This document shows, one piece after another, positions 389 through 13,685 of a stretch of 31,978 nt of DNA. Both the position numbers and the translations under genes were made by a program. The DNA is from a virus. Position 1 is the first letter of the stretch, and each line of letters opens with the position of its first letter. The notes beneath the pieces are model-generated. The model was not told the DNA's origin, did not search any database, and was given only the letters and a program-made list of their open reading frames with translations. The stretch covers positions 1 to 31,978 of the IMG/VR virus record IMGVR_UViG_3300033143_000746; one strand, 5' to 3'.

Positions 389-3300
389 TTATTTATCATT
401 CCAATATTTTAAAGCTTTTTTTGTTGCTATATCATCTTCAAAAATAGTAATTTCTTTCTTATAAACAAATATTTTATCTATATATATACTTCCCCACACT
501 TTAATTATTTTCTCTCTAGAATCAGGGAAAGGAATATATTCAACAGTATCTAAATTAAATCCTTTTATAACTACAACATCATTTGCTTCATTATATAATA
601 GAGAACCATATGATCCTGCAATAAACGCAGTTATAGTAGGAGTATCATCATTTTCTGTAATATTAAGAGAACCTGTTACATTTATTGATAATGTACCACC
701 AGCTGTAATAGAGTCATCTTGAGATATATTATTAGAAGAACCAATGAATATTTCTTTAGCGTTTATTACTGTTGTGTCATCTTCATTAACTAGGTTTAAT
801 GTACCTTCTGTTAATTGATCACCACCAGCTGTAATAGAGTCATCTTGAGATATATTATTAGAAGAACCAATGAATATTTCTTTAGCGTTTATTACTGTTG
901 TGTCATCTTCATTAACTAGGTTTAATGTAGCAATATATACAGGAGAACCGTTAGCATTAATAACATCATTATCTTCATTTACATCGAGACGATTATTTTG
1001 TGCTGTTTCACCTACACCAGATAAAATATCATCTAATTCTGATATATTAAGATTACCGATAGCATTTAATAGTGAACTACCATTACTGATAATAGTATCA
1101 TCTGTGTCAGTTTCGTTTACTGAACCTGAGTATGTTTGAGTACCGGCACTTGCTGATGTATCATTATTATCGGTTTCGTTTAATGTACCTAAATATGTTT
1201 GAGTACCGGCACTTGATGATGTATCATTTACATCTATAGTATTAAGTGAGTTATTTTCACTATGAACACCACTAGCTGATATTGAATCGTCTTCGATAGT
1301 AACATCAAATGTACCAGTAGCATCCAAAATAGATGTACCATTAGATGATATTGAATCATTATTGTCAGCCTCGTTAAGAGTACCGGCGAATATTTCTTCT
1401 CCAGAGCTTGATGATGTATCATCTATATCTGTTTCGTTTAATGTACCTAAGTAAGTTTGAGTACCAACAGAAGCGGAAGTGTCATCTATATCTGTTTCGT
1501 TTAATGTACCTAAGTAAGTTTGAGTACCAGCACTTGATGATGTATCATTATTATCGGTTTCGTTTACTGTACCTGTGATACCTTCGATTGCCGAGCCATT
1601 AGCAGAGATAGTGTCATCTGAGTCTGTAGTATCGGATGTACCAACAAAAATCTGTTCTCCTGATCCAGAAATAGTATCATCTGAGTCTGTAGTATCGGAT
1701 GTACCAGTTATAATTATTAATGATGTACCATCTGCTGCGACTGTATCATCACCATCAACAACATTTACACCACTATTGAAATCCACATCAGATACAACAA
1801 AATCCCCACTAGGAGATAAACCATTTTCAGTATCAAATACGGTAAAAGTATTAGCGTTATTTTCGGTATATGTACCATTAGCTGTTATTGTGTCATTGCC
1901 ATCAGTGGTGTTGAGAGTACCACTTGATCCAGATACTTGTGTTCCTACAGCAGCTAATGTGTCATCAACATCAGTTTCGTTTAAAGTACCAGTGAAAATT
2001 TGTTCGCCAGAAGATGAAGTTGTATCATCAACATCAGTAGTATTAGAAGTACCAACGATACCACCATCAGGGAAGAATTCCGCTAATAAAGTATAACCTG
2101 TACCATTTCGTGTGGCATCAAAACCATTATCTGATAAATCTATTTCTGTTGCGTTATCACCCCTGAATCGTAAATCTAATTCAGCATCAGAACGCACTAT
2201 TGTTATATGTTTTCCAGAAGCTAATGTTGTTAGATCTGTATTTGAAAGAGAATCATTAGTAAGTATAAATACTTCACCAACTGTATTACCAAAATATCTT
2301 GTGGCATTCCCGTCAGGTCTTCTACCAATATTTAATGAAGGTAATGTATTTGCTGTATTACTAAGGTTAGACGTTGACATGTCAGCAGCAGTTACAGTGT
2401 CACCTTCTGCTATCCAGTAACCATAAACAGTAGTACCTATTCGTTGTACTACTAATAGGTGATCCCCATCGTCTATACCATTAGCATCACCTATGTTTGA
2501 TGCTATTACAACATTTATCTCAGTACCAGTATTACCACGAAGACGTACCATGACATCTCTGAAATTTGATGATTCCCCAAAAAATATATGGAAGGAGTTT
2601 GTAGCAGCTAGAGTACCACCAGAAAATATGTACTGGAAATCCATGTTGGTACTTAAACCATTAGGCATTCTTACCCACATACCAACAGTCCAATCAGCAT
2701 CAGGTAATACTAATCCACCTGTGACATCAACATCAAAATATCTGGAATTATTATTTAGCCCAAAGTCTAAAGCTGTTAAAGGTAATTCACCGGCGGCAGA
2801 CATTGTATCGTCTGTATTAGTTTCATTTAAAGTACCAGTGAAAATTTGTTCGCCAGAAGATGAAGTTGTATCATCAACATCAGTAGTATCAAGTGTTCCA
2901 GTTGTACTAACAGATTCAGGTATATACAATGCATCAATATAGCCTCTGTCATCTCCTACTGGTGTGCTGGAATCTTTAGTGTATTCCCACTTAAATGTAC
3001 GAGAACCTGCCGCAACAGTATACTTATTAATTATCCAACCTGCTGTCTCAGCAACCTGTTGACCTTCATAATATCCAGACCATGAATCTTGTTCTACTGT
3101 ATCAATATAAAACTTTAAAAAATCAAACGTTGCTTCACTAGATATAAAATAAGCAAAGAACATTTCCCCTGCATCACATGTTACAGTGTAACTTATATCA
3201 GAAGTACCACTATCAGGAGTAGCAGCATTAGATGCAATACAATCTGTGCCAAATAAAGATTTAGTTGTTATAGCTGCCCAAGGAGTTGACCCATTAGACC

Positions 3301-6300
3301 ATCCTGCTGGAATGCCAGATTCAAAACTTTCTAAAGTCCCAGAGAAATCTGTAGCAGCAGGGTAAATGATATCATCAATGTATACTGTATCTTGACCTGA
3401 TGATGTCCCCCCATCTGTTGCATATATCCATTGAAAAATATGTAATCCAACAGAAAGAGAAGACGAAGTAAATAATGTCCAACTCCCCGCTACACCAGAT
3501 GCAGGGAATCCTGTTTGTACAACACCATCTATATAGAAAAATAATTGATCAAATGTAGCTTCTGAATCCGTTCTGTACCTGAATGATATTGTACCAACAG
3601 AAGTTGTATCCACAATCATTGTGGCTTGACTTTCTTGGTTGGCTAATCCTCCGGTATCTGACTCCATGCAATACGTACCAGCATAAGGAGAAGTTGTACT
3701 GATAACCCAAGGATTGTCATTTGACACACGGATTATTGAAGGTATTGAACCACCTTCAAAATCAATAATGGCAGTTGTCGCTGGGACTTCATATGCGCCT
3801 ACTGATGGTGGGTTAGCCCAAGATTCTCCATCTAAATCTGTAGATAGGTAATTCGCATCGGCAGTAATATTAGTACCACCACTTGTGCTGAATGCAATAC
3901 TGTCTAACGCACCACTTGAACCTGTTGTATCACTTGCAGCACAAGTAACATAATTTGTTTGTGCTGCTGATCCATAGCTGCCATTGGTTGCTCCATTATC
4001 ATGAGCATAACCATTTTTAGCAGTAAGATAAACAGCACTATTAGCACCGACTGCTTCTATTGTTCCTGAGTTTACAACAGTAAATTGTTTTAATGTTGTA
4101 CCTGTTGAATCTGATACATTCCAAGTACTATAAAACCCGTAGTTACCATCACAATCTTCTATTAATACATTTTGGTAAGTACCTACACCACCACCATGTA
4201 AGATACCCTCACGCGCACCACCTAATACATGAACATTAGTGAAACGTATATCTGAACTTGCGCCACCATCAGCTTCAACGTTTAGAACTGAATCATTATT
4301 AGAAGTATTACCAGACGTAGATAAATGTTCACCAATAAAACCATCTTCACGATAGTAATTGATATTCATATGATATAACTTGCCAAAGTTACGAACTGCT
4401 CTTAATTTGTATCCATTAACATTAGTAACAGATACATAACTGTCTTCACCTGTAACCCAATTAGTAGATGTGGTTAATCCTACGGTGTCATCACCACCTG
4501 TACCATCACATATTAAGTGATGAACTTTATTAGTTGCTGCCAAATCTGTTGCTTCTGCCGCGTCCCATTCAGAACGACTTACATATGCTCTGTTCGCACC
4601 AGTAGTTGCATTAGTAGTACCATCACCACCCGTAGTAGAATTTGTATTTACATAACGGAAAACATCCACATCAGCTTTTATTTCAATTGCTATACCAGTT
4701 ACAGATTCTACTGTTGCAGAGAGTGTGACATCTACGGTTGTATCATTATCATTTCTGTATTGAGTTTGTAACGTTCCATACCACCCACCAGATAAATCAA
4801 TAGTTATTTCTGTTTCTTCTGTGAATCCACTTCCAGGTGTTACTGTTAAACCTGCTGCTTCAATAGTTGCGTGATATGCACCATGAGTTGCATTAGCCGC
4901 ATTACTAAATGTCGCAAGAGTTACGGTAAGTGCTGCGGCATTTGCATCATTTGCAGCATGTTGTACTACAGCACCAGAACCATTCGTACCACTTTGGTCA
5001 ACGTTACCTTTTTCACATACTGACCATGCAACACCTGTTTGAGTATCTGATCCAAAATCAATAGTTAGTACACCCGTAGTAGGTGTACCCATAGCACGAA
5101 ATAGTGTCTGTCTGCCAAAATCTTCAGCACCATCAGCACCATCAGCACTACCTATAAGAGATCGTACTACAATCCATGTTACTCCACACCCAGATAAAGT
5201 TGGTTGTACATTACCGTTTGCGGTAACACATTCACCAAGAACATCAACTAATAATAATTTACCAGCACTAGGAGTAATTGAAGCGGTAGTAAAAGAAGTG
5301 CCATCAACTATATCAGACCCTTCTGTTAATAATGTATGAGTTATTCTTGTTATCTCGTCTGCGCCAACATCCCAATTTACACGTAGCTCACCATCAATAT
5401 CATCAGAGAATGTACCACTTAAATCTAAACCTGCGCTGTTTAAATCTGTGTCATTATATTTTAAATGGAAGTCCTTATTTGTGATATCAACAAATACATC
5501 ATCCCATACAGCAGGAGTTATTGCGTTTGTTCCATCACCATCATCAGACGCACAATAATCTATGGTGAGAGTACCACCACCACTGTTTAAAAAATCGTCA
5601 CTGTTAGACCATGACGCACAGTTAGTTGCTATTAAAGTTCCTAATCCTGTGTTGGCTATGCTATATCTATTACCAGTACATGTTGCATTATATAACTCTA
5701 CATCACTATTATCATTATTAATATGGATACCGTAGCTGACTGTGCTTCCTTTGGAAAATCCATAAACAATAGGGTTAGTTATAATTGTTGGAGTTGGAGA
5801 ATATACTGCTAGACCACGAGTATGTTGATCTCCGTTGTTGAATGTTGCTTTTAAAATTGGTCTGTTTACATAAATTGCGCCTGTTGCACTAACCGAAGCT
5901 ATTTTAAATGCTTCTCTGTAACTTGATGATGGATCTATATGACATTGCATATCATTAACAGTAACATATTCTTCTGTTACGATTAATGGTCTATTACCAG
6001 TAGCAATCTGTTCTAATCGGTATGCGCTTGTATTATAAATACCAGTATTGTTATCACCATTAACAGTAATATCATTAGTAACACCAGTTGTCCAACCAAG
6101 TATATCAGCCGCAGTTGTATCCGCAGTAGTACCTGAACAATTGACTACATGACTATCCGTATCGGTTACAAGATCGGTTTGCTCTGCTGCTTCCCATTCA
6201 CTTAAAGAAACGTATGCTCTGTTTGCACCAGTGATTGCATTAGTAGTACCATCACCACCAGCACTAGACGCTGTGTTTACGTAACGAGTTATAATCGCCA

Positions 6301-6301
6301 T
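389..6301 (-). CDS. Giant multidomain adhesin or tail fibre with acidic repeats
   Basis: The 1970-residue protein is a mosaic of beta modules. Residues 1 to about 320 and about 547-840 are two related beta-helix-like domains; each begins with RYVNT, then GGDGTTNA, a GANRAYVS strand and SEW(E/D)AAE. Between them (about 320-545) is a beta-sandwich like that of the PhoD-type protein. Two MAM/jelly-roll-like modules follow (about 845-980 and 990-1128), then two repeats, a LamG-like domain (about 1179-1409, DWTVGMWVRMP), about 21 further repeats (about 1410-1890) and a C-terminal 80-residue domain. The repeat is 17-23 residues with core GTLNETDxDDTxSxxG. I infer a long host-binding fibre. No lyase motif is visible. 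Confidence 0.75.
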   Translation of the reverse strand: MAIITRYVNTASSAGGDGTTNAITGANRAYVSLSEWEAAEQTDLVTDTDSHVVNCSGTTADTTAADILGWTTGVTNDITVNGDNNTGIYNTSAYRLEQIATGNRPLIVTEEYVTVNDMQCHIDPSSSYREAFKIASVSATGAIYVNRPILKATFNNGDQHTRGLAVYSPTPTIITNPIVYGFSKGSTVSYGIHINNDNSDVELYNATCTGNRYSIANTGLGTLIATNCASWSNSDDFLNSGGGTLTIDYCASDDGDGTNAITPAVWDDVFVDITNKDFHLKYNDTDLNSAGLDLSGTFSDDIDGELRVNWDVGADEITRITHTLLTEGSDIVDGTSFTTASITPSAGKLLLVDVLGECVTANGNVQPTLSGCGVTWIVVRSLIGSADGADGAEDFGRQTLFRAMGTPTTGVLTIDFGSDTQTGVAWSVCEKGNVDQSGTNGSGAVVQHAANDANAAALTVTLATFSNAANATHGAYHATIEAAGLTVTPGSGFTEETEITIDLSGGWYGTLQTQYRNDNDTTVDVTLSATVESVTGIAIEIKADVDVFRYVNTNSTTGGDGTTNATTGANRAYVSRSEWDAAEATDLAATNKVHHLICDGTGGDDTVGLTTSTNWVTGEDSYVSVTNVNGYKLRAVRNFGKLYHMNINYYREDGFIGEHLSTSGNTSNNDSVLNVEADGGASSDIRFTNVHVLGGAREGILHGGGVGTYQNVLIEDCDGNYGFYSTWNVSDSTGTTLKQFTVVNSGTIEAVGANSAVYLTAKNGYAHDNGATNGSYGSAAQTNYVTCAASDTTGSSGALDSIAFSTSGGTNITADANYLSTDLDGESWANPPSVGAYEVPATTAIIDFEGGSIPSIIRVSNDNPWVISTTSPYAGTYCMESDTGGLANQESQATMIVDTTSVGTISFRYRTDSEATFDQLFFYIDGVVQTGFPASGVAGSWTLFTSSSLSVGLHIFQWIYATDGGTSSGQDTVYIDDIIYPAATDFSGTLESFESGIPAGWSNGSTPWAAITTKSLFGTDCIASNAATPDSGTSDISYTVTCDAGEMFFAYFISSEATFDFLKFYIDTVEQDSWSGYYEGQQVAETAGWIINKYTVAAGSRTFKWEYTKDSSTPVGDDRGYIDALYIPESVSTTGTLDTTDVDDTTSSSGEQIFTGTLNETNTDDTMSAAGELPLTALDFGLNNNSRYFDVDVTGGLVLPDADWTVGMWVRMPNGLSTNMDFQYIFSGGTLAATNSFHIFFGESSNFRDVMVRLRGNTGTEINVVIASNIGDANGIDDGDHLLVVQRIGTTVYGYWIAEGDTVTAADMSTSNLSNTANTLPSLNIGRRPDGNATRYFGNTVGEVFILTNDSLSNTDLTTLASGKHITIVRSDAELDLRFRGDNATEIDLSDNGFDATRNGTGYTLLAEFFPDGGIVGTSNTTDVDDTTSSSGEQIFTGTLNETDVDDTLAAVGTQVSGSSGTLNTTDGNDTITANGTYTENNANTFTVFDTENGLSPSGDFVVSDVDFNSGVNVVDGDDTVAADGTSLIIITGTSDTTDSDDTISGSGEQIFVGTSDTTDSDDTISANGSAIEGITGTVNETDNNDTSSSAGTQTYLGTLNETDIDDTSASVGTQTYLGTLNETDIDDTSSSSGEEIFAGTLNEADNNDSISSNGTSILDATGTFDVTIEDDSISASGVHSENNSLNTIDVNDTSSSAGTQTYLGTLNETDNNDTSASAGTQTYSGSVNETDTDDTIISNGSSLLNAIGNLNISELDDILSGVGETAQNNRLDVNEDNDVINANGSPVYIATLNLVNEDDTTVINAKEIFIGSSNNISQDDSITAGGDQLTEGTLNLVNEDDTTVINAKEIFIGSSNNISQDDSITAGGTLSINVTGSLNITENDDTPTITAFIAGSYGSLLYNEANDVVVIKGFNLDTVEYIPFPDSREKIIKVWGSIYIDKIFVYKKEITIFEDDIATKKALKYWNDK
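390..397 (-). promoter_or_regulatory. T4-like late promoter octamer (GATAAATA)
   Basis: GATAAATA overlaps the stop codon of the giant adhesin and lies 33 bases upstream of the start at 356. It has the same spacing class as the other octamers. The gap 357-388 otherwise holds only a weak GGA ribosome site. Confidence 0.4.
695..929 (-). repeat. Perfect 109-base direct repeat in tandem
   Basis: Positions 695-803 and 821-929 are identical over 109 bases and separated by 17 bases, giving a 126-base period (42 codons, in frame). The unit encodes two protein repeats (the NLVNEDD and GSSNNISQDD types). Perfect identity implies a recent duplication. Confidence 0.9.
1980..2043 (-). repeat. 64-base direct repeat, copy on the C-terminal side of the LamG domain
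   Basis: The 64-base segment is identical to 2826-2889 in the same orientation. It encodes most of two protein repeats (DVDDTTSSSGEQIFTGTLN). Because the strand is minus, this copy follows the LamG domain in the protein. Confidence 0.9.
2826..2889 (-). repeat. 64-base direct repeat, copy on the N-terminal side of the LamG domain
   Basis: Identical to 1980-2043 and in frame with it (846 bases apart, 282 codons). The two copies bracket the LamG-like domain precisely. Confidence 0.9.
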
Positions 6302-6756
6302 TATTCTACGTCCACATCAACAAGGACATTGGATTCATCATCAGTAGATGAATTCAATTTATTATATATTATTTTTTTACGTACATAAGGTTTTACTTGA
6401 CTCCAAGTAAAAGTTACTTCTCTGTCTGCCAATAATGTATTCCTTACATCTACAGGTAATACACTTGCAGGGATGCGCCATTTTCTTTTTCTCCAAACAT
6501 CAGGATCAATAAGAATTACAGGATCATACGAAGAAGAAAGTAATTCTGATTTTATTTTACTAAATGGAATTGAATCAGGAACAGCAGTGATGTGAACGAA
6601 ACCTAATCGTGACGCAGGTGAAGGTGCTTCTGTTATTTCAGAAGAAAGGTATACAGATACTATATCACCACGTCTATATCTAGCAGCATCTTTTTCAGGG
6701 GATGCGCTTAAATCATGTGTAGGCGGGACTAACATAATTTGAATTGTTATGTCCAT
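6301..6756 (-). CDS. Unknown tail-region protein (151 residues)
   Basis: The protein has IQIMLVPPTHDLSASPEKDA, RYRRGDIVSVYLSS, then ASRLGFVHITAVPDSIPF, a layout I recall from unannotated proteins beside fibre genes in other phages. It has no membrane segment and no catalytic motif. The start at 6756 has a GGGAG ribosome site 9 bases upstream, better than the Met at residue 8. Its stop overlaps the start of the 1970-residue adhesin as TAATG, so the two are translationally coupled; a role in attaching or folding that adhesin is plausible but unproven. Confidence 0.7.
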   Translation of the reverse strand: MDITIQIMLVPPTHDLSASPEKDAARYRRGDIVSVYLSSEITEAPSPASRLGFVHITAVPDSIPFSKIKSELLSSSYDPVILIDPDVWRKRKWRIPASVLPVDVRNTLLADREVTFTWSQVKPYVRKKIIYNKLNSSTDDESNVLVDVDVE

Positions 6757-6780
6757 AATATTTTACTCCCTTATAGTGGT

Positions 6781-8901
6781 CTATGCAGTTACATTTATGG
6801 CAAAATTGGATATAACACTTTGATCAGATGTTTTTCTGATAATTATATAATAACTACCAACAGTTAAATTAAGTGCTGTGATCGTACCCACACCCGAACC
6901 ATCCGTTGTGAATGTACCACTTGCTGAGAAAGTTCCACCCCATGCACTATATATAACATAATCAAATCCAGTAGTTGCTATTGGAGCATTGTATTTGTCT
7001 ACTAAATCAAAAGTAACCTGATTTATTAATGGGGTTAGTATTATAAGAGCATCAGTATAAATTAATACTTCGTCTTTATCGAAACCTTTTGTTGTTACTG
7101 TTATCTGTGTTGTAATATCAACAAAAGACATCGTTGAATATTGACCATCAAGATCACCCTGTACAGGAGTGAATGAGTACGTACCACCTTTTGTTGAACC
7201 TGTCTTGGCTAATGGTGATGATTGGTACACAGGCCAACCTGTTCTGGTTGATGTGTCAAAGGTATTATTCGTTCCATCATCATATGCAATCATATGAGCA
7301 TCAGCCGCTATAAATGCAATTTTATCTTCTAATCCCTCTAACCATATCTTATCTGCAATCTCAGTTCTTTCGGCAGTTGCATCACTCCATGTATCCGTTT
7401 CGGCAGTTGCAATCCAAGGTACACCAGTTGAAACTACTGTAAATTTAATATTTGCGTCTGCTGCGATACTTGCAAGTTCCGCTAAGAACCATGTTTTTTG
7501 TGTAGACCCTAATAAGGTATTGGTGTCACGATAATAACGAGTATCTAGTAAAATAAAACGTATTCGGCCATGAGTCCATGCTCTGTAAATTCCACCTGAA
7601 GATGGAAGTTCTAAATGTGGATCAGGTATGAAAGTTCTATATGCTGCGGCGGCTGCTAATTTTGAAGGAGAAGATGCATCTGAATCATTATTACTATAAT
7701 CATGATCATCCCAGACGTATTTTAATGACTTCGACTTAAACATTCTACGTTGATTTGGTAATGCGAAAACTGTCTTATACGCAGTCCAGAATAAACTTTC
7801 TGTGTTGGTTGTAATGTCATCGTAATGCATATCACCCAAATGTATGAAAAAATCAGCATCTAGAGCCGCAACATTAAGGTGAGTTTGAGATTCAGTATTA
7901 GATTCAGTATCACCAACAAAAACATATGAGAAATTTGCTGGTATACCTGCTGTTTGTAAAGTTTTAACAGTTGCGTATTCAACATCTGCTGTACCATTCT
8001 CAATAGCACGAACATAATATTTCGTATTAGGAGTTAAACTAGTTAAGCTAAATCGGGCAATGTAATCAGAACCTACTACTGGTGTTGTCGCACCTGTTGT
8101 AGACGATGATGAAAAATCAAGATTGGTTGAATATTCAAGTGTAGTTGAAAGACCACTTGGCACACGACATGTTATTTCTGCTGTGGTAGATTCTGAATTG
8201 GTTAAGTAAAAATCTATGTCTGCTGTTGCGACATTTTCAAAGACAAGCATGATACCTGCCATTTGATCGCCAGTATCTGTAGTAGAAAATGTTGTTTCGA
8301 CTGTCCCAGCAGAAGTAAGAGTTTTTGTGGCTATAATTAATGCAACAGTATTACCACCAGCATTATTAGCACCAACAAACTCTATTTCAGTAAAACCATT
8401 TGTGTATGATCTACCTGTTTCAATATTAGAAAAAGTATCTCCACCAAAAAGTGCAAGGGCAAAAGCGTTTGCTTGTGAGGTTGTTCCTGTAGTACCAGTG
8501 GTCTGAGAAGTTACTGCTGATGCACCACTATTAGCGGTTACTGTTACGTCTGGTGTAGCACCATTAAGTCCTACTATTTCACCAATCCAAACATGTTGGT
8601 CATTAACAGCATTAGTCCAAGTCCAATCAGCAAGTAAATCATCTGCTGAACCATCAGCAAGTCTAATTGAATACGCAATAGTTACACTTACATCTGCCTT
8701 TACGACTACCGCAGCAGACCAACCTGTACCTGTAGGGCCGGTTACAGTACCACCATCTTTGTCAATTGCTATAAAAGATAATACGACTGAGCCAACATCA
8801 GGTGCTTCACGTAAAGAAGCACTTCTATTAGTATCTTCTGTAGTAGAATCTATATCTTCATTGACTACTGATTGAACTATTCTTGGGTTAAATGAACTCA
8901 T
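6781..8901 (-). CDS. Virion protein with embedded PhoD-like metallophosphatase domain
   Basis: The 706-residue protein is a mosaic. Residues 1 to about 224 form a phage-type beta-sandwich (SVVLSFIAIDKDGG, WIGEIVGL, ANAFALALFGGD). Residues about 225-315 look like an FnIII/PhoD-N domain (FSLTSLTPNTKYYVRA). Residues about 320-600 carry PhoD motifs in order: VGD (Asp331), HLGD (Asp357), WDDHDYSNND (397-406), LLDTRYYRD (451-459), STQKTWFLAEL (466-476), VVSTGVPW (489-496) and ADAHM (533-537) where PhoD has GDxH. The rest is a C-terminal Ig-like domain (about 620-706). PhoD enzymes cleave phosphodiesters and phosphomonoesters with Fe/Ca or similar metals. No signal peptide is present, so it probably acts as part of the particle. 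An AGGAA site precedes the ATG. Activity on teichoic acid, phosphorylated glycan or nucleic acid is unproven. Confidence 0.8.
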   Translation of the reverse strand: MSSFNPRIVQSVVNEDIDSTTEDTNRSASLREAPDVGSVVLSFIAIDKDGGTVTGPTGTGWSAAVVVKADVSVTIAYSIRLADGSADDLLADWTWTNAVNDQHVWIGEIVGLNGATPDVTVTANSGASAVTSQTTGTTGTTSQANAFALALFGGDTFSNIETGRSYTNGFTEIEFVGANNAGGNTVALIIATKTLTSAGTVETTFSTTDTGDQMAGIMLVFENVATADIDFYLTNSESTTAEITCRVPSGLSTTLEYSTNLDFSSSSTTGATTPVVGSDYIARFSLTSLTPNTKYYVRAIENGTADVEYATVKTLQTAGIPANFSYVFVGDTESNTESQTHLNVAALDADFFIHLGDMHYDDITTNTESLFWTAYKTVFALPNQRRMFKSKSLKYVWDDHDYSNNDSDASSPSKLAAAAAYRTFIPDPHLELPSSGGIYRAWTHGRIRFILLDTRYYRDTNTLLGSTQKTWFLAELASIAADANIKFTVVSTGVPWIATAETDTWSDATAERTEIADKIWLEGLEDKIAFIAADAHMIAYDDGTNNTFDTSTRTGWPVYQSSPLAKTGSTKGGTYSFTPVQGDLDGQYSTMSFVDITTQITVTTKGFDKDEVLIYTDALIILTPLINQVTFDLVDKYNAPIATTGFDYVIYSAWGGTFSASGTFTTDGSGVGTITALNLTVGSYYIIIRKTSDQSVISNFAINVTA

Positions 8902-8986: not shown

Positions 8987-9403
8987 TTACGCATTACCCA
9001 TAGTAATATCGAATTGTGTAATTGAAATAGTAGCGCCTGCTACTATTGATACTGTATTCAAGTTAAGATCTGAACCAGATGTACCTACATCACCATCCAT
9101 AATATGAGTACCAGCAGCTTGAGTTAATACTCTAAACCATGTTGCTGTACCAGTAGCGTCAGCAGATGCGTCATCAGTAATTGATGCACCAACAATAGTT
9201 CCAGCCGCTGCTGCCGCGAATGAAGCTGCTGAGAAAGTTAATGTTGCAAGTAATACTTGTGTAGTTACCGCACCACCTGTTGCTGGACGACCTGTACCTG
9301 TACTATCGTAAATTTCGATAATTGCTGCGGTACCAGCATCCATTTCTGTTGTGATTGCGTCTGCTTTTGCGTTACGTACTGCTACGCTATATCCTAATGC
9401 CAT
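8987..9403 (-). CDS. Small alanine-rich virion protein
   Basis: The 138-residue protein matches a common phage structural pattern I recall: ALGYSVAVRNAKADAITT, IIEIYDSTGTGRPAT, LLATLTFSAASF, DDASADATGTATWFRV, then DGDVGTSGSDLNLNTVSI and a short SITQFDIT end. It is beta-rich, with an alanine run (AAAAAG) at about residue 65. An AAAGG ribosome site precedes the start. The function is unknown beyond probable virion decoration or fibre attachment. No metal or catalytic motif is visible. Confidence 0.7.
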   Translation of the reverse strand: MALGYSVAVRNAKADAITTEMDAGTAAIIEIYDSTGTGRPATGGAVTTQVLLATLTFSAASFAAAAAGTIVGASITDDASADATGTATWFRVLTQAAGTHIMDGDVGTSGSDLNLNTVSIVAGATISITQFDITMGNA

Positions 9404-9796: not shown

Positions 9797-10069
9797 TTAT
9801 TTCTTCTGTTTAATACGCTGTCTAGTTTTTCTATTTATATTAAATCTATTACCGTTTGCTTTTGTAATACTTATATTACCACTTCGATTATTTATATTAA
9901 ATCTATCACCTATATCTGTGCGTATATCAATGTCAGTAGTTTTCTTATCTACATAAACATTCATAACTGAATAATTTTCAGTTTCATTATTAACTACATC
10001 TAGTGCGATATATAACTCTAAAGTACTAGGTGGTCTTTTTGTTTCACTCAGAAGAGTCTTCGATGTCAT
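9797..10069 (-). CDS. Small basic protein with duplicated RFNIN motif
   Basis: The 90-residue protein is unknown. It overlaps the receiver gene by 26 bases at its 5' end; the ATG at 10069 has an AAGAAG site upstream, and the next Met is at residue 36. The second half has beta-like residues with two copies of an RFNIN-(N/R)-(R/K) motif and a strongly basic end (KTRQRIKQKK). The first part (LELYIALDVVNNETENYSVM) resembles a beta strand pair. The DNA under the duplicated motif is a near-identical 22-base repeat. Confidence 0.55.
   Translation of the reverse strand: MTSKTLLSETKRPPSTLELYIALDVVNNETENYSVMNVYVDKKTTDIDIRTDIGDRFNINNRSGNISITKANGNRFNINRKTRQRIKQKK
9832..9910 (-). repeat. Duplicated 22-base element containing TATAAATA
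   Basis: Copies at 9832-9853 and 9889-9910 differ at one base and are offset by 57 bases (19 codons). Both contain the minus-strand octamer TATAAATA and encode the RFNIN motif of the small basic protein. The copy at 9832-9839 is 41 bases upstream of the start at 9790, so it could also act as a late promoter for that gene. Confidence 0.6.
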
Positions 10070-10529
10070 CTTGTATTCTTCTTTTATTTATTCTTCGTTC
10101 TATATTCTTGTAACATGATTGATAAAAACATGAGTTATTACTAGCACATAACAATAATCTTCTAAATGCTGCAGGAAAATCTTCTTGTATTGGTTTGTTA
10201 TATACTAAACCATGTTGCCATAATAAATTACTGATTTTAGGATCTTCTATACTTGTTACAAATAATATAGGTATATTAGGACTTTTTTCATGTATATCCC
10301 TTGCTACACTAATGCCACTGATATCAGGTAATACAGAATCTAATATAACAGCTTCTATATTTTGTCCTATGCGATTCAATTCTTCTAAACCACTCACGCC
10401 AGTATTTGCTACAATATATTTTACGTTTTCACGTTCTACTATTGCTTCCATGTAATGTAATACTTCTTGATCTTCTTCGATAATAAGTATTAAACCATCT
10501 ATATCACATCCTCTGTTACCACCATCCAT
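10044..10529 (-). CDS. Stand-alone response-regulator receiver domain
   Basis: The 161-residue protein has a receiver fold: strand LILIIEED with an acidic pocket (Glu18, Glu19, Asp20), a phospho-acceptor in ILDSVLPDISG (Asp64), a conserved Thr in LFVTS (Thr92) and the switch Lys in YNKP (Lys112). The PDISG after the acceptor and the KP dipeptide are typical. There is no DNA-binding or enzymatic output domain; after residue 125 comes a short tail with three Cys (128, 134, 139) and a basic/acidic end. It may act as a phosphate sink or intercept a host histidine kinase. The acidic pair Glu-Glu instead of the usual Asp/Glu-Asp may change metal binding. Finding this in a tail/lysis region is unusual for phages. 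Confidence 0.8.
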   Translation of the reverse strand: MDGGNRGCDIDGLILIIEEDQEVLHYMEAIVERENVKYIVANTGVSGLEELNRIGQNIEAVILDSVLPDISGISVARDIHEKSPNIPILFVTSIEDPKISNLLWQHGLVYNKPIQEDFPAAFRRLLLCASNNSCFYQSCYKNIERRINKRRIQDDIEDSSE

Positions 10530-10834
10530 TATGTATTATCCTTATCCTTCTTTTTATCTAATTTAGATTCAATTGAATCAAGTTTAAGAAATAAAGCATC
10601 AGAAAGACGTTGTAAATCTTCTTTCATTACATAAAAGGTTGGTAAACTTACATTTAATTTATTTATCTCTTTAGACAAAATTTTGTCCTGTTTAGTTAGA
10701 TTATCTAACTGATTAAATAACCTATTAACCACAAAACCACCCGTAAATGCTATTAACGCTACCGCTACATTAAATAGGGTTTGGAATGTCACATTCGCGT
10801 TTTGTGCTACATGGCTTATTATTTCTTGTTCCAC
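10529..10834 (-). CDS. Single-helix membrane protein with coiled coil (possible holin-like)
   Basis: Start is GTG at 10834, supported by an AAAGGG ribosome site 9 bases upstream. The 101-residue protein has one hydrophobic segment (about residues 18-40, LFNVAVALIAFTGGFVVNRL), then an amphipathic helix and a lysine-rich C-terminus (about residues 70-101, KLDSIESKLDKKKDKDN). Membrane helix plus charged coiled coil resembles small phage holin/antiholin or spanin-like proteins, but no signature settles this. It overlaps the receiver-domain gene by one base (TAATG) and follows the LapG-like gene. Confidence 0.65.
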   Translation of the reverse strand: MEQEIISHVAQNANVTFQTLFNVAVALIAFTGGFVVNRLFNQLDNLTKQDKILSKEINKLNVSLPTFYVMKEDLQRLSDALFLKLDSIESKLDKKKDKDNT

Positions 10835-10905: not shown

Positions 10906-11451
10906 TTATTCTTCATCAAATTCAAATGGAGAAGTATATTCTTCATATTCTTCTCTAAATCTTTCTACCACATCTCTCCATGTTTTAAAAACTTTATATC
11001 CATTACCGATAAGTTTACCATCACTCCAAAAACCATCATTATTGAAACTATATGTATTTATAGGTAAATCTTTTCTTTCGGTAAATAATTCTATCTTATC
11101 CGTTATATTATCTAGAATTACATATTCATTATCATATAATACAGATAAAACCATGTGAGCTGTACCATCTGTTGTAGTTACATGCATGAGACGAAGATTT
11201 TCTTCTTTTATTCCCATCATTTTGAGTGTAAAATATTTACCAATTGCATAATCTTCACAATCACCTAAACCTTTTTGCATAAACTCAAATGGAGTAGCCC
11301 AATAATCTTTTTCATCCCAATTATAATCATCCCATTCATATTCTATATCATTGAAAAAATCGTTAACAGTATGTAATTTTTGAAAGGTTGTTAAGCCATC
11401 TGAACTCTCTAATAACTCCACCCATTGCGCTATTTTCTTTGAATATTCCAT
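10906..11451 (-). CDS. LapG-like cysteine peptidase (BTLCP / DUF920 family)
   Basis: The 181-residue protein matches the transglutaminase-like LapG family along most of its length: an N-terminal helix (KKIAQWVELLESSDGL), KLHTVNDFFND, EKDYWATPFEFM, then GLGDCEDYAIGKYFTLKMMG with Cys65. The motif TAHMVLSVLYD gives His99 and VILDN gives Asp114, a Cys-His-Asp triad with normal spacing. The DCED motif (64-67) also carries the Asp/Glu that bind calcium in LapG structures. LapG cuts the N-terminus of LapA-type surface adhesins in the periplasm and is inhibited by LapD when cyclic-di-GMP is high. No signal peptide is visible here, so the enzyme would act in the cytoplasm, on virion proteins, or outside after lysis. 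It lies between a membrane protein gene and a possible holin. Confidence 0.8.
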   Translation of the reverse strand: MEYSKKIAQWVELLESSDGLTTFQKLHTVNDFFNDIEYEWDDYNWDEKDYWATPFEFMQKGLGDCEDYAIGKYFTLKMMGIKEENLRLMHVTTTDGTAHMVLSVLYDNEYVILDNITDKIELFTERKDLPINTYSFNNDGFWSDGKLIGNGYKVFKTWRDVVERFREEYEEYTSPFEFDEE

Positions 11452-12656: not shown

Positions 12657-13685
12657 TTATTCAAGAGACGCACCACCCGAACCCATTTTAGGATTAGTTA
12701 ATGTTGTACTTTCCCAAGAATGAGCTGTACCATTCCATTTTCCTATTCTATTCTCAGCAACGAAGTCATATGCCGCAGAATCATCCCCACCCATTGTATG
12801 TAGATTACTACCAACATTACCTGTCGCGCCATAAGAATGTTCATTAGCCATCACTGCAACTAACAAAGTAGAAGTAGTTTCGTCATAACTTCTTATTTCG
12901 GTTGAATCATTATTTGATATATCCCAACCACCAAATATATAATTAATTCCACCTTGCCAGCCACAAAATGCACGAGCAATACCTCTGTTTACTGTAGCTG
13001 ACTCTGTAGTAACCGCTGCTGCTGTATTTTTAATTATGCTTGAAGAATAAGCAGCAGGTGTGATAACACTATACCCACCATACATATAATTATTTCCATT
13101 CATCCAAGTTGTATTATCAGCAGTTCTTAAAGATATACTCATAACAAGAGAATCAGTTAATCTAGTAGTACCGTCCCAAGTTTGAATTAGATTATCAATG
13201 AGTTCCGGATCGCCAGCATATATATAATTTTTCCCGTCTAGATAAGCAGCTGATCCTTCATTCCAAAGGGCTGTTAATGTTGCTGTTTCTACGGTTAAAG
13301 ACGATTCATCATACTTACTAATAGTATCCGACTGAGTTGCCCCAGGTTGGTTATACCCTCCATAAATATAAGCAAGCGCATTTAAAGTTGCTGCACCGTT
13401 ACCAACGGAAGTCTCTGCAAGTTCTCCACTAGCTACTACACTAGTGGTTCCGTTCCATTTTTCAATGACTTTATAATGAGTTGCATCACTATATCCACCA
13501 AAACAATACATATTGACAAATGTTGCGTTCTCCCATGTGAATAAAAAATCGTGACACTTCTTCCATACACCACTCACCTTTACATAAGCCTTCATAGTTG
13601 GTTTCCATACACCACTAACTCTTACTTCAACATCATCAATTTCCTCCCATACACCACTCACCTTTACAAATGTTTTATTAGGCAT
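12657..13685 (-). CDS. Kelch-like beta-propeller candidate receptor-binding protein
   Basis: The 342-residue protein begins with three near-identical strands (FVKVSGVWEEIDD, VRVSGVWKP, YVKVSGVWKK; residues 6-43), a repeat type seen in phage fibre stalks. Residues about 57-330 then carry six Kelch-like units, each with a hydrophobic-hydrophobic-GG or AG turn: CFGGYS (61), YIYGGY (107), YIYAGD (154), YMYGGY (200), YIFGGW (249), HTMGGD (296). Each is followed 12-20 residues later by a W/Y-D/N-G/E-T strand such as EKWNGT, SKYDES, QTWDGT, RSYDET or GKWNGT; the fourth unit lacks it. Six units fit a six-bladed propeller. Kelch domains bind proteins or sugars, so a virion adhesin is likely. Domain identity is pattern-based. 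Confidence 0.7.
   Translation of the reverse strand: MPNKTFVKVSGVWEEIDDVEVRVSGVWKPTMKAYVKVSGVWKKCHDFLFTWENATFVNMYCFGGYSDATHYKVIEKWNGTTSVVASGELAETSVGNGAATLNALAYIYGGYNQPGATQSDTISKYDESSLTVETATLTALWNEGSAAYLDGKNYIYAGDPELIDNLIQTWDGTTRLTDSLVMSISLRTADNTTWMNGNNYMYGGYSVITPAAYSSSIIKNTAAAVTTESATVNRGIARAFCGWQGGINYIFGGWDISNNDSTEIRSYDETTSTLLVAVMANEHSYGATGNVGSNLHTMGGDDSAAYDFVAENRIGKWNGTAHSWESTTLTNPKMGSGGASLE
13561..13668 (-). repeat. Three near-identical 23-base repeats encoding VKVSGVWK
   Basis: Copies at about 13561-13583, 13603-13625 and 13645-13668 share the plus-strand core CCATACACCACT followed by an AC-rich stretch, with few differences. The spacing of 42 bases is 14 codons, so the repeat keeps the reading frame and encodes three tandem beta-strands at the N-terminus of the Kelch-like protein. 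Confidence 0.75.

Follow-up and report, generated by a model that had tools for sequence, protein, structure and literature searches.

Gene content of the window and position of the PhoD gene

The stretch analysed here (the window), 31,978 bases long, makes up a complete viral record of IMG/VR. It holds a 706-residue open reading frame (ORF), starting with ATG on the minus strand (6781-8901), in which the presence of a PhoD domain is certain: the Pfam profile PF09423 (PhoD) matches with an E-value of 2.4e-14 and a score of 53.7 bits against a curated cut-off of 27, and the predicted structure has the fold of PhoD and purple acid phosphatases (PAP) with its N-terminal beta-sandwich. Three PHROG phage families also match, including "phosphodiesterase" (E 4e-43) and "hydrolase" (E 1e-32), and the phrog_13624 alignment spans residues 49-611. 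Read along the minus strand, a phrog_3758 gene, the PhoD gene, a 151-residue ORF and a gene for a very long fibre-like protein follow each other, tightly packed:

8987..9403, minus strand: phrog_3758 virion structural protein, 138 residues, upstream of the PhoD gene (PHROG match)
6781..8901, minus strand: whole PhoD ORF, 706 residues, comprising a phage-type beta domain, a PhoD N-domain, a PhoD phosphoesterase core and a C-terminal Ig-like domain (Pfam, PHROG, model, match to 2YEQ)
8227..8901, minus strand: residues 1-225, phage-type beta-sandwich (profile match; low model confidence)
7948..8226, minus strand: residues ~226-318, the Fn3-like N-domain that PhoD shares with purple acid phosphatases, a domain not specific to phages (weak PF16656 and PF16655 matches; 2YEQ alignment)
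7042..7947, minus strand: residues ~319-620, PhoD catalytic core (PF09423, E 2.4e-14; pLDDT ~95; Z 36.5 to 2YEQ)
6784..7041, minus strand: residues 621-706, Ig-like domain at the C-terminus that varies among relatives (sequence comparison, model)
6301..6756, minus strand: 151-residue ORF directly downstream of the PhoD gene, on the same strand after a 24-base gap (ORF list)
389..6301, minus strand: repetitive fibre-like protein of 1970 residues, overlapping the 151-residue ORF by 1 base and assigned to no family (profile searches)

The other half of the window carries a T4-type baseplate module with hub-lysozyme, PAAR, gp25-like, gp6-like and wedge-like proteins, whose closest relatives (~35%) are found in Desulfovibrio phage 7757, pelagiphages and cyanophages. 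The PhoD gene therefore lies in a phage, and this phage is contractile-tailed. A spanin- or lipoprotein-like neighbour (10529-10834, a weak match) weakly suggests a Gram-negative host. T4-like late promoters (TATAAATA) were not enriched in the window (7 against 8.6 expected), and a search for relatives of a 522-residue neighbour returned none.

Domain organisation and fold of the PhoD protein

The initial annotation had called for a structure prediction to be set against Bacillus PhoD. An AlphaFold2 model built from a 92-row alignment of the window protein and the fetched loci placed residues ~229-620 at a pLDDT of ~95, with the N-terminus (1-223) and the C-terminus not confident; a single-sequence run reached a pLDDT of only 32. 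The top PDB match of the model is Bacillus subtilis PhoD (2YEQ; Foldseek E 1.1e-23), with purple acid phosphatases ranking after it, and model residues 222-622, covering N-domain and core, align to 2YEQ as one unit (Z 36.5, rmsd 2.6, 380 residues).

The same alignment revises the description of the flanking regions. Phage-type beta-sandwiches had been proposed on the two sides of the phosphatase; this holds for residues 1-225 only, while the sandwich at ~226-318 is the standard N-domain of PhoD and PAP enzymes, since the part aligned to 2YEQ takes it in. Residues 1-225 are conserved in two full-length relatives of the window protein (L165 and L011) and are probably related to the N-terminal regions of PhoD proteins from Streptomyces and Microbacterium phages, as suggested by a profile match (E 1.1e-5, probability 82%). 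A profile search of this region against the PDB gave weak Ig-type matches only, and no similarity to the 1970-residue fibre was seen. Separate tblastn searches with the N-terminal and C-terminal domains found no phage match, nor did a first scan of viral records with the single window protein as query find any. Compared with the Bacillus enzyme, the window protein adds the phage-type N-terminal and Ig-like C-terminal domains, and nothing in it aligns to the C-terminal capping helix.

Metal ligands of the active site

The PhoD motifs occur in the order originally described, running from GD(331)T through GD(357)MHY(360) and WD(398)D(399)HDYSN(404)N(405) to AD(534)AH(536):

7909..7911, minus strand: D331, equivalent of the Fe3+ ligand Cys180, Asp subfamily (alignment; PMC4223295)
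7822..7833, minus strand: D357 to Y360, equivalents of Asp207 and Tyr210 (alignment)
7687..7710, minus strand: DDHDYSNN, with D398, D399, N404 and N405 equivalent to Asp265, Asp266, Asn271 and Asn272 of the Ca sites (alignment)
7294..7305, minus strand: ADAH, with A533 at the Gly435 position and D534 and H536 equivalent to Asp436 and His438 (alignment)

Bacillus PhoD contains a tyrosinate-ligated Fe3+, and loss of Cys180, Asp207, Asp265, Asp266, Asn271, Asn272 or Asp436 abolishes or drastically cuts its activity (PMC4223295). The proposed metal-site comparison with this enzyme found no ligand missing: by alignment, each Bacillus position holds a usable ligand in the window protein, with Tyr210 and His438 taken as the Tyr and His ligands on the same basis. 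The Fe3+ set (Cys or Asp, Asp, Tyr, His) is supplied by D331, D357, Y360 and H536, and the Ca-site set by D398, D399, D534, N404 and N405, the register of the Asn pair being uncertain in relatives. Indeed, the Asn271 position is Pro in most viral relatives, in which the CaB ligands may be offset by one position, and the NND of the window protein fits both registers. The divalent-site ligands of purple acid phosphatases (His2 Asp Asn) are absent from the window protein and PhoD-type DDH and DxH stand in their place, so it is not a true purple acid phosphatase. Fold and ligand set are thus well supported, and we infer that the ligands converge in three dimensions.

The active site is also strongly conserved beyond the window. 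The Asp207 and Tyr210 equivalents are invariant in viral (83/83) and genome-derived (82/82) rows, those of Asp265, Asp266 and His267 are kept in 81 of 83 viral rows, and those of Asp436 and His438 in 82/82 of the viral rows covered. Given that columns of the 92-row alignment are on average 16% identical, such near-invariance argues that selection keeps the active site in phages. Phage adhesins recycle enzyme folds, and the PhoD fold could on this ground have been retained to bind phosphorylated glycans as receptors, with no turnover. A few phage homologues have lost ligands, with Ser at the Asp265 position in Tomas and Pioneer3 and Asn at that of Asp266 in Pumpernickel and Unphazed. However, the window protein and most of its viral relatives, otherwise widely divergent, keep all ligand positions and His267, and we consider a binding-only role improbable. 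The active site of the window protein is very likely catalytically competent, as predicted from these residues.

The ADAH motif and the Asp/Ala variant

The initial annotation had flagged ADAH, where GDxH is usual, as a reason to question activity. The substitution is present, but it is no anomaly. Ala occupies the Gly435 position in 28 of 65 viral representatives (non-redundant at an 80% identity cut) and is nearly always paired with Asp at the Fe3+ position; conversely, Asp is paired with Ala without exception among viral proteins. Counted as residue pairs 331/533, these representatives comprise 37 Cys/Gly, 26 Asp/Ala, 2 Cys/Ala and 0 Asp/Gly, and the 82 genome-derived rows comprise 77 Cys/Gly, 2 Asp/Gly, 1 Cys/Ala and 2 with another letter at 331. 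A division of PhoD into two subfamilies, according to whether position 180 is Cys or Asp, has been described previously (PMC4223295). Inactivation was rejected as a meaning of the motif: Gly435 is not a ligand, D534 and H536 are intact, and Asp and Ala co-occur. We therefore read ADAH as a lineage signature and not as a mark of inactivity.

On a tree computed without the 331 and 533 columns, the window groups with L165 and L011 (99*) beside a Cys/Gly relative (L027), and the Asp/Ala state changes 7 times, at least 3 of these changes being forced by well-supported branches. The co-occurrence of the two residues has a Fisher p of 4e-16 with relatedness ignored; supported branches yield 4 independent pairs (sign-test p 0.25). 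The pairing looks like co-adaptation, although independence of the events on the tree is unproven, the supported pairs being too few for significance.

Among the 80 genome loci, the only Asp forms are a tandem pair of PhoD genes in a Calditrichota MAG (L084, 5639-8986 and 9205-11124), both Asp/Gly.

Export signal, fusions and neighbourhood of viral PhoD proteins

PhoD enzymes are typically extracytoplasmic, and that of Bacillus is exported by the Tat pathway, a route that the authors tie to iron loading beforehand (PMC4223295). The window protein, by contrast, has no apparent Tat or Sec signal peptide at its N-terminus (MSSFNPRIVQSVVNEDIDSTTEDTNR) in a simple hydrophobicity test, in line with what had been noted at the outset. 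The same crude test, which looks for a 12-residue stretch of mean Kyte-Doolittle >= 2.2 near the N-terminus and relies on mechanically assigned start codons, detected such a stretch in 2 of 64 viral and 53 of 80 genome-derived PhoD proteins (Fisher p 1.8e-16, not corrected for relatedness). A virion protein would need no Tat signal: its folding takes place in the cytoplasm, and lysis lets it out of the cell.

Several viral PhoD proteins are joined to tail or tail-fibre families. Among 60 of them, fusions involve DUF5047 (7), tail protein phrog_1887 (7), minor tail protein phrog_1885 (5), two tail-fibre families (3 each) and a tail tubular protein (1), in sets that may overlap; individual checks established PhoD plus tail protein in L018, L025 and L082, and PhoD plus tail fibre in L042 and L048. 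Neighbouring genes share the strand in 103 of 122 cases, and the 25 commonest neighbouring families, where they have a name, mostly belong to tail-fibre, tail, minor tail, minor head or virion structural proteins. In L165, PhoD directly follows head-morphogenesis genes; in P1312 it comes after tail genes, in Pioneer3 between capsid and head-tail genes, and in YongM and Dfl-JY23 next to a "capsid fiber protein" gene. The homologues of Tomas, among tRNA genes, and of Pumpernickel, among nucleotide-metabolism genes, lie outside structural modules.

These data bear on the prevailing interpretation of phage phoD as an auxiliary metabolic gene (AMG), whose product, released at lysis or exported, would mobilise organically bound phosphate to the benefit of the host or of the following infection. 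A role in phosphate acquisition is widely ascribed to phage phoD; one soil study shares this reading, reports a dN/dS below 1 and describes one protein (PhoD22) that hydrolysed pNPP (PMC10987575), and the location of the Tomas and Pumpernickel homologues agrees with this view. However, the lack of an apparent signal peptide in the window protein and in nearly all viral ones, the tail fusions of relatives and the location of the window gene within a fibre cassette argue against it, and phosphate release could be a mere side effect of a particle enzyme. Phosphate supply in poor water, offered earlier as one function, amounts to this published reading and fits the context less well; we regard it as unlikely.

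A role inside the infected cell, on nucleotides or host-defence signals, or in blocking superinfection, would make the structural neighbours coincidental. It finds precedent in Gp48 of A10ZJ24, a small phage metallophosphoesterase that counters host defence (PMC12287305), and in the proposal that P1312 ORF22 blocks superinfection (PMC4569894). Yet Gp48 belongs to a different, non-PhoD family, and the viral PhoD proteins bear adhesion-type and tail domains on an enzyme class that usually acts outside the cytoplasm, which makes such a role very unlikely.

A fibre cassette exchanged with and without PhoD

The phrog_3758 gene is 72-93% identical in four other viral records (L166, L169, L171 and L172; 89-93% with L166 and L169). 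In all four it is followed by pieces of the same fibre (<=74% identical), with no PhoD gene between, and a search of the complete records from which L166 (81 kb) and L169 (77 kb) derive gave no PhoD match. The surroundings also differ: unlike in the window, the cassette is placed after terminase genes in L166 and after a tail-sheath stabiliser-like gene in L169. The gp6-like protein was not found in these two records, a search run without a positive control, so that different backbones are not proven. We take phrog_3758 and the recombined fibre pieces, with their differing neighbours, to be an exchanged cassette, in which PhoD is an optional insert because cassettes elsewhere, up to 93% identical, lack it. 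A host-range or surface-processing module would be expected to look like this.

The 1970-residue fibre itself contains many short repeats (..NETDNDDTSSSAGTQTYLGTL..), and its residues 847-980 recur in the C-terminal parts of the L055 and L061 PhoD proteins.

Particle and mutant data on homologues

LC-MS/MS data exist for cyanophage YongM, whose PhoD (5775..7658) stands 7th by score (1132, with 35% of the sequence covered) in a list of 32 proteins, in the company of capsid and tail proteins; the product of the adjoining capsid fibre gene is 10th (PMC8875764, Table 4). The sample was concentrated phage, with particle purification only loosely described, and the authors placed the protein under DNA anabolism (PMC8875764). 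Together with the tail fusions, structural neighbours and absent signal peptides, this family-level evidence favours particle association, which we consider probable for the window PhoD.

Other observations stand against this reading. In gel-filtered virions of P1312, where 24 of 93 proteins were found, PhoD (ORF22) has no coverage value (PMC4569894). A YongM UV mutant with a 1-base deletion at 6196, which shifts the frame at codon 488, is viable with large plaques and also carries a tail-fibre mutation (PMC11356776); codon 488 lies beyond the PhoD domain, which ends near 361, so it is the C-terminal part of YongM PhoD that is dispensable in the laboratory. The placement of PhoD in Tomas and Pumpernickel likewise runs counter to a structural role.

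A proposed particle-borne phosphoesterase

Taken together, a complete ligand set, no apparent export signal and a fibre cassette sustain the original idea of a phosphatase domain within a protein of the virion cluster. On balance we favour an active PhoD phosphoesterase, as predicted, borne on the particle in a fibre or decoration protein and acting on host-surface phosphates during adsorption. The enzyme would be a PhoD metallophosphoesterase of the Asp subfamily with a predicted Fe3+ and two Ca2+. Synthesis and folding, with metal loading, would take place in the host cytoplasm, after which the enzyme would join the particle together with the structural and fibre proteins encoded next to it; outside the cell, it would hydrolyse phosphate esters carried by molecules of the host surface, either removing or cutting them, and so aid adsorption or penetration. 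Candidate substrates are phosphorylated LPS core or O-antigen, phosphodiester-linked capsule and exposed phospholipid, which are likelier than the teichoic acid of the initial annotation given the weak indication of a Gram-negative host; if that indication is right, teichoic acid is a poor guess. Surface hydrolysis during adsorption, taken by itself, is plausible, with chances slightly better than even; activity, substrate and adsorption role of the window protein are what we infer.

Several known systems place this proposal in context. Of the Bacillus PhoD residues, D207, Y210, D265, D266, D436 and H438 have identical equivalents and N271 and N272 are also Asn, the differences being Asp for Cys at the Fe3+ position and Ala for Gly435. 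The "hydrolase" and "phosphodiesterase" families PHROG 13624 and 24476, from Streptomyces, Microbacterium and Thermobifida phages, share the beta domain plus PhoD arrangement, and their P1312 member is also Asp/Ala; they differ in hosts and phage types, have ~25-30% identity to the window protein, and include many members of the Cys/Gly type or with ligands lost. YongM "alkaline phosphatase D" (QLF85062.1) likewise has a PhoD domain, no signal peptide and a capsid-fibre neighbour, but its PhoD is N-terminal, of the Cys/Gly type and 31-32% identical, with a long C-terminal domain; it was found by MS of a phage preparation (PMC8875764). Soil phage phoD genes are phage-encoded too and mostly keep DDHE/D and DxH, yet the accessible account mentions no tail association, the word "tail" occurring nowhere in its main text (PMC10987575). 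A functional parallel is the tail-associated GDPD of enterococcal phages, a phosphodiesterase domain in tail modules proposed to attack surface glycopolymers, although it belongs to an unrelated enzyme family and to phages of Gram-positive hosts (PMC10194240).

The window gene belongs, as a divergent member, to a phage family that databases already contain; the particle-borne reading departs both from the secreted enzyme and from the AMG interpretation in print. Searches of the open-access literature returned no description of PhoD as an enzyme of the virion. More broadly, many of the phage PhoD genes that are commonly interpreted as metabolic helpers of the host may encode parts of the particle. 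We give somewhat less than an even chance to the wider proposal that phage PhoD proteins are largely a widespread class of phosphoesterases that are carried on the particle, act on surfaces and have been recombined with tail and fibre domains, the Asp/Ala variant having arisen several times in viruses and being rare in the cellular relatives sampled. If true, genes counted as a phage boost to host phosphorus supply would become infection machinery, inference of viral roles in phosphorus cycling would change, and a metal-dependent (Fe/Ca) enzyme type would join the short list of tail-associated depolymerases.

Further observations

Three other minus-strand genes of the window deserve mention: a 161-residue protein with a response-regulator receiver domain (10044-10529; PF00072, E 1.1e-12) within the structural cluster, a 181-residue transglutaminase-like cysteine proteinase (10906-11451; Peptidase_C93, E 5.5e-18) in the phage cluster, and a 342-residue protein with weak Kelch-motif matches (12657-13685) in the fibre region. 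PhoD-like proteins also occur in the giant viruses Orpheovirus and Yasminevirus (BFVD A0A2I2L3W3 and A0A5K0U7V2).
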